64,000 bases of DNA, from assembly GCF_003838195.1 (NCBI RefSeq), contig NZ_RCBY01000012.1, positions 1 to 64,000 of the forward strand. The letters are read 5' to 3'. Positions 58,863 to 63,557 of the stretch are shown one piece after another. The notes under the pieces were generated by a model, which was given only the letters and a program-made list of their open reading frames with translations, was not told the DNA's origin and searched no databases. Both the position numbers and the translations under genes were made by a program. The DNA comes from Okeania hirsuta (lineage in GTDB: Bacteria; Cyanobacteriota; Cyanobacteriia; Cyanobacteriales; Microcoleaceae). How positions within the stretch are numbered: position 1 is the first letter of the stretch; each line of letters starts with the position of its first letter.

Positions 58863-59512
58863 ATGGTTGAAAAAGCGTACAAATTTAGGTTTTACCCAAC
58901 TCCAGAACAGGAAAATCTGTTGCGGAGAACTTTGGGCTGTGTACGATTAATCTACAACGCAGAAATAAAATCAGGCCAGTCTGGTGACTACTGGGACGAT
59001 AACTTAGCAGCTATTACTGAAAAGCGCAACCTTCAGATGCGTGATCATGTGAACAAAGCAGCTAGATTTGTGATCAACTGGTGCATTGAGCATCAAATAG
59101 GTACAGTAGTTTTTGGGTGGAATCAACGCCAAAAAGATAGTATTAACATTGGCAAAAAAATAACCAACAGTTTGTTCAAATACCTACAGCCAAGTTAAAA
59201 ACCAAGATAGCTGAATTATCTGAGCAGTATGGGATTAAGTTTGTTGAGACTGAGGATAGTTACACGAGTAAGGCTAGTTTTAGTATCGGATGATTTTCTG
59301 CCGACATTTGGTGCGAAACCCGTTTGCGTAACATTCCGTAGGAAAAGGTGGGAGCCATCAGGAAAGCTTGTTAATTGTGGCTTGTATCGTTCTGCAAAAG
59401 GTCAAGTTATTAATGCTGACTGTAATGGTGCAGCCAGTATTATCAAAAAAGTAGCAACACAGCTAAGTCATATCATGTCCGGTAGCATCGGTATTAGAGT
59501 TGTCGCTAAATA
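58863..59512 (+). pseudogene. TnpB (IS200/IS605 family), deleted and interrupted
   Basis: Starts MVEKAYKFRFYPTPEQENLL and RTLGCVRLIYNAE like TnpB, then jumps by deletion to NLQMRDHVNKAARFVINWCI, GTVVFGWNQRQKDSINIGKK. In shifted frames KTKIAELSEQYGIKFVETED and SYTSKASF (RuvC-II Glu) follow, then the 25-bp palindromic repeat (59321-59345) lies where the zinc finger should be, and VNCGLYRSAKGQVINADCNG (RuvC-III Asp) ends it. It also joins an ATATCATGTCCGGTAGCATC end at 59469. Inactive. Confidence 0.8.
59321..59345 (+). repeat. 25-bp palindromic repeat inside tnpB
   Basis: CGTTTGCGTAACATTCCGTA then GGAAA, inserted in the TnpB zinc-finger region. Matches the copy inside the IS5 transposase at 60833-60857 in 24 of 25 positions. 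Confidence 0.8.
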
Positions 59513-59704
59513 AAGGAAAAAAATCACTCTAACCTAGACAGAGCAATAATTCCCAGCATTTTTACCATCCAATAGCTACAATCCTTACAGAACAAGGTTT
59601 TTGGGATTTTTTTTTAAGTTATAAAGCGACAAGTCTATTGATAAGTGCGATGAAGAAAAGAAAACAGTTATGCAGAAAACCGACTATCTTGGTAGACCTA
59701 TTAG

Positions 59705-60235
59705 TTGGCAAAATTTAGACTTTTCAAAAGCTACTTTAATCGACTCAATGTGGAGACAGAGTTAAAACCATGGAAGACAGTAACTGACAATAAAATAATA
59801 CCACCAACCAATCTTCCAGAACCTGTCAGATCTTTTATGGCATCTCATTTCAACAGGAGCTTAAGTTATTTCACCATTCAAAAAGTTAACCATGGAGATC
59901 AAGATAATTCTACGGCTATATCAATTAAATTTAAGCCTGGAGAGTATGATGATACGACACAAGAAGGGTTAACGAAAATTGCTGACAAGTTAGGTGATGC
60001 ATTCAAAGTTCAAGATCCCAATAGTGACATTCAAGCGAGTATTTCTGAAGCCGTAACTAAGATCAAGAAGGAGTTACCTCAGAAGTCTGCATCTATTAAG
60101 AATGATTTGATAAAACTACGGCGACCACCACAAGTTAGCTATGCTGACCTTATTGCAGCTCGGAAAACTCCGTCTAGGTACATTACAGGAAGAACTCCCT
60201 CTCAGCTAGGAAGAAGACCTACCTCAAGACGATAA
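59705..60235 (+). CDS. Hypothetical protein, 176 aa
   Basis: Not recognised. The start is unsure: the frame opens with TTG at 59705, but an ATG at 59670 in another frame encodes MQKTDYLGRPISWQNLDFSK, which looks like a gene start and would need one frameshift near 59755. The body (PEPVRSFMASHFNRSLSYFT, AISIKFKPGEYDDTTQEGLT, DIQASISEAVTKIKKELPQK) is soluble and helical and the C-terminus is basic (GRTPSQLGRRPTSRR). MITE copy C begins 34 bases after its stop. Confidence 0.45.
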   Translation: MAKFRLFKSYFNRLNVETELKPWKTVTDNKIIPPTNLPEPVRSFMASHFNRSLSYFTIQKVNHGDQDNSTAISIKFKPGEYDDTTQEGLTKIADKLGDAFKVQDPNSDIQASISEAVTKIKKELPQKSASIKNDLIKLRRPPQVSYADLIAARKTPSRYITGRTPSQLGRRPTSRR

Positions 60236-60272
60236 TCACACAATTAACGTGGCTATGAAATTTAAGCCTAAG

Positions 60273-60486
60273 TAGGGCTTGCTGAAAAAGTCGCCCTGAT
60301 GAGGGTAGGAGTCTCCTCCTCAGGAGTAGGTAGTCGGAAGAATTGTCTGTTGATTTTTCCGCCTCTGTCAGCTCATGCAAGTGAGAATTTTGAGCTAAAC
60401 CCTCCTTTTAGCTTGCACTTTTTTTACCCCAAAAAGGCACTTTGGCTTTATCTATAAATGCTTTTAGACTTAATCAGCAAGCCCTA
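60273..60486 (+). mobile_element. MITE copy C (GGGCTTGCTGA family)
   Basis: Ends TAGGGCTTGCTGAAAAAGTC and TTAATCAGCAAGCCCTA. Left flank TAAGTA (60269-60274); the matching right TAAGTA is split by the IS5-like element inserted at its TAA and resumes as GTA at 62371. Confidence 0.85.
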
Positions 60487-60832
60487 AGAGACTGTTTGTA
60501 AAGTTTTGTAAGGGAAAGCGATCGCCATAACGCAAAAGATAAGACAATGATAATTGTCATGATTTTCCCTCCTATGGAAAGAAAAAACTATCAAGCGTGA
60601 CCTAACCAATGAACAGTGGGAAATTTGAAGGCGGCTGATTCCTCCACCCCATTCTGGTGGTAGGTCTGGAAGTGTCGATACAAGAGAAGTTATTAATGGT
60701 ATTTTCTACCTCGTACACAACGGCTGTACATGGGGGGCACTTCCTCATGATTTACCACCTTGGCAAACCGTAGCTACCTATTTTTATCGTTGGCAACGCA
60801 GTGGAGTATGGAAAGAAATCAATGATATGTTA

Positions 60833-60857
60833 CGTTTGCGTAGCATTCCGTAGGAAA
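60833..60857 (+). repeat. 25-bp palindromic repeat inside IS5 transposase
   Basis: CGTTTGCGTAGCATTCCGTA then GGAAA, between the codons for EINDMLR and KVRIKQGR. Its insertion introduces a stop codon (TAG). Confidence 0.85.
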
Positions 60858-61331
60858 GAAAAGTCAGAATCAAACAAGGAAGAACTGAAGAGCCATTTCT
60901 AGGGTATAATTGATTCACAGTCGGTAAAAACGACTGAAAAAGGGGGATTAGAGGTTATGATGCTGGTAAAAAGGTAAAAGGAAGAAAACGACACATATTA
61001 GTAGATACTCAAGGGTTGTTACTGAGTGTAGTTGTACATACTGCAAATATACAGGATAGAGAAGGAGCTAAGTCTGTATTTCTTCAAGCTAAATATGATG
61101 CGCCGAATCTGAAAATTGTTTGGGCAGATCAAGGTTATAGAGGAAAACTAGAGAAATCAGTGGCAATGGTTTGTGGATGGAAATTAGCTATTGTTAACAG
61201 AACTGAAAAAGGGTTTCAAGTGTTGCCCAGACGCTGGGTGGTAGAGAGGACTTTTGCGAGGGCGCGGCCGTAATCGTAGACTTTCTTGCATATTATGAAG
61301 AACATCCTCACAATAGCGAAGCTTTGGTTTA

Positions 61332-62289
61332 TAGCAACAGCCAGGGCGATTAGGACATAAAATAGAGAAAGTATTCTGTCATGCGATCGCTCTTCCTTGC
61401 CTCGACCCTATAGTTACGATTTTAGAAAAAAAGTGATAGAGGCCATTGAACTTGATGGCTGGAAAAAAAGTGATTGAGTCAACTGTTCCGGATTAGCCGG
61501 AACACGATTGACCTGTGGCTGAAACGGAAAGCTGAAACTGGAGACTATCAACCTCGGCCAAACCAACCCCCCGGTAATGACCATCAAATCACCGATTGGC
61601 ACAAATTTCGAGAATTTGTCAAGGTTCATGGTGACAAAACCCAAGGAGAAATGGCCAAATTGTGGGATAGTCCCATCAGTCAACGCACAATCTCAAGAGC
61701 ACTCAAAAAAATTGGCTTCACTCGAAAAAAAAACTTATGGCTACCAAGAAAGGGATCAAAAGGAAAGACAAGAATTCTTGAGCCAATAAACTCAAGCTTT
61801 CCCCTAAATCAATGGTTTATATAGATGAGTCAGGTATGAATAACCAACAGCAGTATGATTATGGATGGAATCAAAAAGGAGAACGATTCTACTCACTTAA
61901 ATCGGGAAAGCGTCAAGAGCGCATCAACATGATTGCTGCTTTGTGCAATGGAAATTTAATGGCACCTTTTACAGTGGATGGTTCGTGTAATCGTATTGTC
62001 TTTGAGATGTGGCTCGAAAATTTTTTGTTACCTACACTTCAACCAGGGCAAGTAGTGATCATGGATAACGCTGCTTTCCACCTTTGTGAAAAGATTCAAC
62101 AACTAATTCAAGGGGCTGGCTGTCAACTGTTGTATTTACCTCCTTATTCACCAGACCTCAATCCCATAGAGAAATGTTGGTCTTGGCTTAAAAGTCGCAT
62201 TCGTCACCAGCTCAAAGGATTTGATTGTTTGCTTTCCGGCGATTGAATCAGTTCTGCAAGCAGTGTCCTAACCGCCTTGGCGGTTGCTA
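61332..62289 (+). mobile_element. Nested IS630-like element
   Basis: Inverted ends TAGCAACAGCCAGGGCGATT (left) and the inverse of TAGCAACCGCCAAGGCGGTT (right). Flanked by TA on each side (61330-61331, 62290-62291). Removing it with one TA rejoins the host IS5 frame as GTT-TAT-ATT-TCC-ATG. Confidence 0.9.
61408..62275 (+). pseudogene. Transposase of the nested IS630-like element
   Basis: PYSYDFRKKVIEAIELDGWK starts the HTH domain, then after a frameshift SQLFRISRNTIDLWLKRKAE and QGEMAKLWDSPISQRTISRA. At a run of nine A residues (61724-61732) the frame moves from TRKKNLW to KTYGYQERDQKERQEFLSQ, possibly a natural slippage site. The DDE part is MVYIDESGMNNQQQYDYGWN, QVVIMDNAAFHLCEKIQQLI, LPPYSPDLNPIEKCWSWLKS, and the end AIESVLQAVS is in another frame. 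Too many indels to be active. Confidence 0.8.
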
Positions 62290-62549
62290 TATATTTCCAT
62301 GATTCGTTTAATGCTAAAACGTTTAGCGATCGCTACTAATACTTCATAATTCTTTACAAACAGCCTCTAAGTAAAATGAGTTCGATCAGGATTTACGCAG
62401 AAACCGGGTTGATCGACAAAATTTCGTATATGACAGCCAATAATTAGGGTGATTAACTGTTGAATGAAAATTGTATAAAGTAGTTGCTATTTGTAGAAAA
62501 GTGTTGTAATATTAAACAGGTAATAACTCTAATGAATTATAGCGGTTAA

Positions 62550-63557
62550 ATGAGACTTGTTGACAGACATATTATTAACCGAACACATCAGTATTGGCGG
62601 GTGTGTGATGAGTTAGCCTTTAAATCAAAAAACTTGTACAACCTGGCTAACTATTATTGTCGTCAGCATTTTTTTAAGTGCGGAAAAAGTCTAGATTTAA
62701 CTAAACTGTACCACGCCACCAAAGATAGCGATGCCTACAGAGCATTACCAACTAAAGTATCAAAACAAATAATAAAATGCTTGGTTGCAACTTGGCGTGG
62801 CTATTTTCAAGCTATAAAAGAATGGTCAAAATATCCACAAAAGTTTCTAGGTAAACCCAAAATACCAAAGTATAAGGACAAAACCAAAGGCCGAAATGTA
62901 GTTATCTACTCAAAAGAGTCTGTATATAAAGCACCACTAAAGGACGGTATTTGTCACTTATCTATGAGTGATATCAAAATACCTGTAGTGGTTGAGTCTG
63001 TAGTTGAAGTGAGGATAGTACCTGCAACTGGCTGCGATGTAATTGAAGTTGTGTATGAAAAAACTGAACAACAACGGATAGAGTCTACATATGTAGCAGG
63101 AATAGATTTAGGGATTGATAGATTAGTTGCTCTAGCTACAAACAAGCCTGGTGTGAAACCTCTGCTTGTTAATGGGAAGCCACTAAAAAGCGTCAATCAG
63201 CTTTACAACAAGCGAAAAGCTAAATATCAAAGTGTTCTCAAGGGCCAGAAAAAAACTAGCCGTAAGATTGAAGCGTTAACCTATCACCGAAATCGTTTTG
63301 TGGAGAATTATCTGCATAACACCAGTAAATTAGTGGTTGAGTATTTAACTACAAATAATATTGGTACTGTAGTCATAGGCAAAAATGATAATTGGAAACA
63401 AGGTGCAAACATCGGCAAAAAAAATAACCAAAATTTTACTCAAATACCACATTTTAAGCTAGTAAAACAGATAACTTATAAGTGTGTGTTAGCAGGAATT
63501 AAAGTGATTGAGACTGAAGAAAGTTACACCAGTAAAACTTCTGCACTTGACCTATAA
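62550..63557 (+). pseudogene. TnpB (IS200/IS605 family RNA-guided nuclease), prematurely stopped
   Basis: 335 codons of a TnpB-type protein: MRLVDRHIINRTHQYWRVCD, KNLYNLANYYCRQHFF, LPTKVSKQIIKCLVATWRGY, VAGIDLGIDRLVALATNKPG (RuvC-I Asp), NNIGTVVIGKNDNWKQGANI, KVIETEESYTSK (RuvC-II Glu). TAA at 63555 follows SALDL; in the same frame the missing part goes on LPCQHELYVGKRVKRGLFRS and ATGKVINADINGSLQ (RuvC-III Asp) to TAA at 63666. So the zinc finger and third catalytic residue are cut off unless the stop is read through. No TnpA gene is near. Confidence 0.85.

Follow-up and report, generated by a model that had tools for sequence, protein, structure and literature searches.

The nesting of IS elements and MITEs within one another is an ordinary phenomenon. 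Elements of the IS5 family duplicate 3 bp of the form TNA upon insertion, and elements of the IS630 family insert at TA dinucleotides, which are thereby duplicated. Bacterial MITEs are further mobile elements to which the present locus can be compared. IS activity has been covered for cyanobacteria (PMC2246112) and across prokaryotes (PMC9208149), and in the consulted portion of the latter source the word “nested” occurs only in the reference list. The use of nesting to order elements is an established method, as exemplified by TinT (PMC3014933). At the smaller end of the size range, the consulted part of PMC3733652 describes GTAG- and CGTC-tagged REP repeats in cyanobacteria and, for other bacteria, REP insertions inside ORFs. 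A literature search covering titles and the beginnings of abstracts, with partial coverage and hence only as weak evidence, returned no description of the stacked site reported here or of its elements.

Here, we analyze a site at which a MITE, an IS5-type element, a 25-bp interspersed repeat, and an IS630-type element are layered within a window of 64,000 nucleotides, the whole stretch of DNA that was studied. The window belongs to contig C24 of a draft assembly that totals 8.79 Mb over 716 contigs; in the following, G001 denotes a same-genus genome, G055 a genome from another genus, and C- and L-numbers refer to contigs and loci, respectively. The arrangement is best explained by three successive DNA-transposon insertions at one site, with the IS5-type element already carrying the repeat and reading frame damage, a reading to which we assign a probability of about 0.88. 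Overall, the site represents ordinary mobile-element layering. The stack itself probably does nothing, and it would appear to mark a region that tolerates insertions, alongside what is left of an already deleted gene. It provides a clean case of an insertion order that can be read from nested duplications. Nesting-based ordering is common to this analysis and to TinT (PMC3014933), but the single site considered here yields no family-level chronology.

Layers of the stacked site

The features of the site are collected in Table 1. Rfam models at gathering scores gave no match within the window.

Table 1. Features of the stacked site, in window coordinates.
Feature	Position	Strand	Evidence
Left MITE target duplication TAAGTA	60269..60274		sequence; family rule TANNTA
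MITE, 210 bp, ends GGGCTTGCTGAAAAAGTC / GACTTAATCAGCAAGCCC	60275..60484	+	inverted repeat; many end-like sites in genome
TAA, start of the MITE's right duplication and left IS5-type duplication	60485..60487		sequence
IS5-type element, 920 bp without the IS630-type insert, broken transposase	60488..62367	+	paired ends; DDE_Tnp_1; partial copies elsewhere
25-bp interspersed repeat GTTTGCGTAGCATTCCGTAGGAAAG in the IS5 transposase, in-frame stop	60834..60858	+	same place in L108, absent in L109
Left IS630-type TA duplication	61330..61331		sequence; exact empty site in L122/L188
IS630-type element, transposase distributed over several frames	61332..62289	+	arms; HTH_Tnp_IS630 and DDE_3; other stretches C171, C323, C150
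Right IS630-type TA duplication	62290..62291		sequence; empty-site comparison
TAAGTA, right IS5-type duplication (TAA) and remainder of the MITE's right duplication (GTA)	62368..62373		sequence

Like bacterial MITEs, the MITE in the window is short, without a transposase, and non-coding (the longest ORFs overlapping it span 52 and 53 amino acids), has inverted ends (20-nt arms, including two flank bases, that are 90% complementary), and belongs to a family with a 6-bp target duplication and many copies. Its end sequence is present at 117 genomic sites with at most one mismatch, as opposed to none for a reversed control. It differs from these elements in its target, which is TANNTA and mostly TAATTA, and in that no autonomous or full-length partner with the same ends was seen among the loci read. 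An earlier parse of 40 copies, in which L055 contributed two overlapping readings, one copy came from G001, and the window copy was among the six misses, found an exact duplication in 34 (6 bp in 32 and 7 bp in two). In a later parse of 47 copies with full flanks, drawn from all genomes sampled up to that point, 35 carried identical 6-bp sequences left and right, always conforming to TANNTA (22 TAATTA, five TATTTA, four TAAGTA, two TACTTA, and one each of TACATA and TAAATA); the 12 misses include both 7-bp cases and the split window copy, and several of the others are one base off. When left and right flanks of the 47 copies were paired at random, a mean of 13.7 and a maximum of 21 matches were reached in 1000 trials. 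As these shuffled pairings remain below the 35 matches observed, the flank identity exceeds mere target preference, strong as this preference is.

The IS5-type element is delimited by paired inverted ends (60488-60503 and 62352-62367) with 20-nt arms that, flank included, are 90% complementary. Its likeness to the IS5 family further comprises a DDE_Tnp_1 match (PF01609, E 6.7e-09) on an 85-amino-acid piece of the transposase (61016-61270) and the 3-bp duplication TAA/TAA, and of the 12 transposase matches listed out of 913 plasmid records, 11 are to proteins that bear the annotation IS5 family transposase. In contrast to the family at large, the copy in the window is dead: its frame contains several breaks and a stop and is broken up by the short repeat and the IS630-type element; it may still be moved in trans by a relative. 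TAA was found on both sides of all six distinct paired elements (L028, L075, L108, L115, L126, and L151), a set that includes short derivatives sharing these ends as well as L108, whose scaffold spans Ns. Among 11 unpaired IS5-like ends outside the window (at most two mismatches), TNA adjoins seven and is absent at four (L071, L124, L129, and L146). Partial copies that are 94-98% alike occur in G055 and G001; within the genome under study, the left IS5 part is without a copy above 82%, and 81 bases of the right part are copied at 94%.

The innermost element matches the IS630 family (IS630/Tc1-type) by its transposase, with hits to HTH_Tnp_IS630 (PF01710, E 4.5e-06) and DDE_3 (PF13358, E 6.5e-43), by insertion at a TA that is duplicated, and by its 28-nt arms (61330-61357 and 62264-62291), which are 89% complementary with the TA included on each side. 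It departs from the family in a reading frame that is broken at about three points. Further stretches of the element in this genome are located on C171 (528/528 bases identical), C323 (99.8% over 490 bases), and C150 (100/100), each with one junction that adjoins TA and with flanks that differ from those in the window. Since the element is repeated, two of the three other stretches end at contig ends, and C323 is partial, as it has no left half and its right half follows 292 other bases, an assembly error inside the IS630-type element is possible. As a side observation, the frame breaks are also present in the C171 stretch (L104 9400-9927), which is identical to the window element over 528 bp. 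Defective copies of IS630 may therefore also have been amplified, provided that the assembly did not place the same reads twice.

The 25-bp repeat and shared damage in the IS5-type lineage

The 25-bp repeat, for which the original prediction gave no coordinates, was taken to be 60834-60858, as no other high-copy short repeat was found within the IS5 portion. The 13-mer at its core is present in 51 genomic copies (25 forward and 26 reverse), compared to zero occurrences of a reversed control, and related matches are present in many of the family's genomes. Size (20-40 bp) and dispersal of REP-like repeats, as given in the consulted part of PMC3733652, also fit this 25-mer. Unlike the GTAG-/CGTC-tagged REPs covered there, however, it has been assigned to none of these groups, and its palindromic character is not clear: for the 25-mer 60835-60859, at least equal fold stability was reached by 376 of 1000 mononucleotide shuffles, which does not sustain its initial description as a palindrome.

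The repeat interrupts the IS5 transposase, which thereby has 21 bases more than L109 (78% alike) and a stop in frame. The 12 matches to plasmid IS5-type transposases listed out of 913 records, all without the repeat, fall short of the query by 8 or 9 codons (ten with 216 bases for all 80 query residues, one with 210 for 79, and one with 201 for 75). As the query carried seven X in place of six codons in the window, the true length difference is one less. In L108 of G055, a genome of another genus, the repeat, which differs by one substitution, occupies the same codon position, in a 504-base piece that is itself continuous but has single Ns before both ends, so that the TAA pair of this copy is linked by the scaffold only; L132 has a variant of the repeat at the same place. 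Because L108 has the repeat at this codon and G055 is without the stack at the window's site, the repeat most likely arrived within the IS5-type element, having entered the IS5 lineage before the insertion here, and was not, as the original prediction had it, inserted later at this locus. The G055 copies L108 and L121 contain a second, different 25-base insertion that is missing in the window; short repeats therefore entered the IS5 lineage more than once.

Reading frame damage is shared in a similar way. Two frame-shifting changes near the IS5 3' end (around GCGAGGGYGCGGCCG and TTTCTTGCATATT) are common to the window, L108, L121, and L122, and both are absent in six other aligned rows that extend over the two positions (L006, L109, L112, L123, L124, and L134). 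L110, which is 89% alike, has the first change and ends before the second, and L132, consisting of the 5' part only and misaligned by the program, was left out of this count. Some further changes in the IS5-type element are confined to the window copy. Another frame change, at GAAAAAGGGGGATTAG, was considered as copy-specific damage and rejected, as L109, a 78% relative, has an equivalent change in the alignment; it may reflect programmed frameshifting.

The IS5 copy was probably already defective when it reached this site. Because copies at different places carry the same damage, we infer that it was moved in trans by another transposase. Chances are about even that this dead IS5 lineage, together with its repeat and shared breaks, keeps spreading between cyanobacterial genera as a passenger of an active relative, and that the broken IS630-type element does likewise within the genome. 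To judge from the shared damage, a defective full-size IS copy may reach several sites and species, which bears on the counting of “active” IS elements.

Order of insertion and alternative readings

In the sequence of events that we favor, a non-autonomous MITE entered TAAGTA and duplicated it. A transposase-defective IS5-type element, probably already equipped with the repeat and frame breaks, was then moved, presumably in trans, into the TAA of the right TAAGTA, and an IS630-type element finally entered a TA inside the dead IS5 transposase. The first two steps are shown by the duplications and the third by the TA pair and the empty sites in other IS5 copies, while the arrival of repeat and damage with the IS5-type element is suggested by the copies in other genomes. 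The insertions themselves follow the original prediction, which had called a MITE with a TAAGTA duplication, an IS5-like element in the right TAAGTA with TAA duplicated, and an IS630-like element with 28-bp ends and a TA duplication in the IS5 transposase; they agree with the TANNTA rule in 35 of 47 MITE copies, with TAA/TAA at six of six paired IS5-type ends, and with the arms and empty sites of the IS630-type element, respectively. The MITE is older than the IS5-type element at this site because the latter took its TAA from the MITE's right TAAGTA and left GTA beyond, an agreement that, by reasoning, would arise by chance in about 1 in 64 cases.

Restoration of the IS5 frame upon removal of the IS630-type element, also foreseen, was reproduced by rejoining the two sides with a single TA, which yields the frame EALVYISMIRLMLKRLA. 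The corresponding empty TA site, which had been proposed as a check, exists in an IS5 fragment of the same-genus genome G001, where 40/40 letters of the empty-site 40-mer match (L122/L188, one place). Lower matches were obtained for L108 in G055 (38/40), L121 (37), L109 (35), and L123 (34), giving four distinct IS5-type places at which the site is empty within five mismatches and a fifth with six.

Several other readings were weighed against this order. Nesting dates the IS630-type element against the IS5 lineage and not strictly against the arrival of the IS5-type element here, and nesting alone cannot separate a later insertion from a composite arrival, in which the IS630-type element was already inside the IS5-type element at landing; the latter was, moreover, probably a passenger anyway. 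We regard a composite as unlikely, as a family search, in which few candidates were scored per genome, showed no second IS5 copy with IS630 inside, the three other IS630 places have other flanks, and the site is empty at the places listed above. Entry of the IS630-type element after the arrival of the IS5-type element is the more likely order. That the 25-bp repeat entered only after the IS5-type element had landed here seems distinctly improbable. Such a late entry would be in keeping with a repeat that interrupts the transposase and is dispersed in the genome, the repeat piece in L108 is tied to the ends only through Ns, and the other copies could in principle derive from the one in the window, in which case the repeat would postdate arrival. 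The same-codon repeat in another genus, its variant in L132, and the further frame breaks common to other copies nevertheless contradict a late entry unless the G055 copies derive from the window copy.

We give very little weight to the possibility that the IS5-type element came first and the MITE later inserted beside it, with TAAGTA matching by chance. TA-rich targets are favored by both families, and TAATTA-like targets so much so that chance pairing of MITE flanks is common (13.7 of 47 on average), but the right flank of the MITE reads TAAGAG and is no 6-bp duplication, and the missing GTA is situated exactly past the IS5-type element. An assembly artefact that joined repeat copies is scarcely credible either: although the draft consists of 716 contigs and two other IS630 stretches stop at contig ends, it is at odds with the duplications on both sides, with the reading frame restored on joining, and with the letter-perfect empty site of G001.

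This order is valid for the events at the site and not for the families. The relative time order for four element families that had been proposed from the nesting does not follow from a single site, and the nesting is reversed at L110 in G001: a 750-bp MITE-ended element (1445-2194) flanked by TAGCTA duplications contains an IS5-type fragment of 210 bp, which carries the first of the two shared frame-shifting changes. Given this reverse nesting, the families were active in overlapping periods and are unordered by one site. The locus also illustrates a limit of nesting, as the content of a mobile element may have travelled with the element.

Flanks and neighboring DNA

An empty TAAGTA was sought with a joined-flank query (136 nt) in 61 family genomes including the genome under study, where the left 50 nt matched this genome only and none of the 60 others at E <= 0.001; the right part of the query is repetitive in its own right and lies near a TnpB element. 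No genome with the same site but fewer layers was found among the family genomes searched. The upstream gene piece was recovered from three of the other 60 genomes as well as from a single named record, that of Okeania sp. SIO2F4 (97% over 151 residues and 98% over 452 bp), which points to a cyanobacterial host. Unrelated DNA lies behind the matched part of this gene in G055 and SIO2F4, and G055 is for this reason without the stack at the window's site. The sole syntenic locus seen, on C272 of G001 (L010), is bordered by the gene and by a TnpB gene, with intergenic DNA that does not align and that contains none of the three insertions present in the window.

At L010, an independent 410-bp MITE of the same family (1997-2406) with TAATTA duplications is located right at the end of the orthologous gene; the same intergenic stretch has been hit by MITEs in two species. 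The upstream gene itself is represented in the window by a 176-amino-acid ORF (59705-60235), the end of a longer gene that forms an open frame of 819 amino acids in G055, and about 1.07 kb of the G055 frame is missing. Its identity amounts to only 77% with a same-genus genome as opposed to 98% with SIO2F4, which hints at horizontal exchange of this gene. To the left of the MITE, 26 of 30 bases (60245-60274) are alike to a stretch inside the neighboring gene of G001 and look as if they were a piece of a second gene copy. Two further repeats were noticed close to the stack. A second MITE-like repeat of about 147 bp (59493-59639; ends TAGAGTTGTCGCT / AGCGACAAGTCTA), apparently beside TA, sits at the tail of an apparent TnpB remnant; the matches listed for it number in the dozens, come from this genome and from four of the same genus, and in many cases exceed 85%. 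On the other side, the TnpB gene at 62550-63557 is preceded by a stretch (62388-62457) that recurs widely across the genomes of the family.
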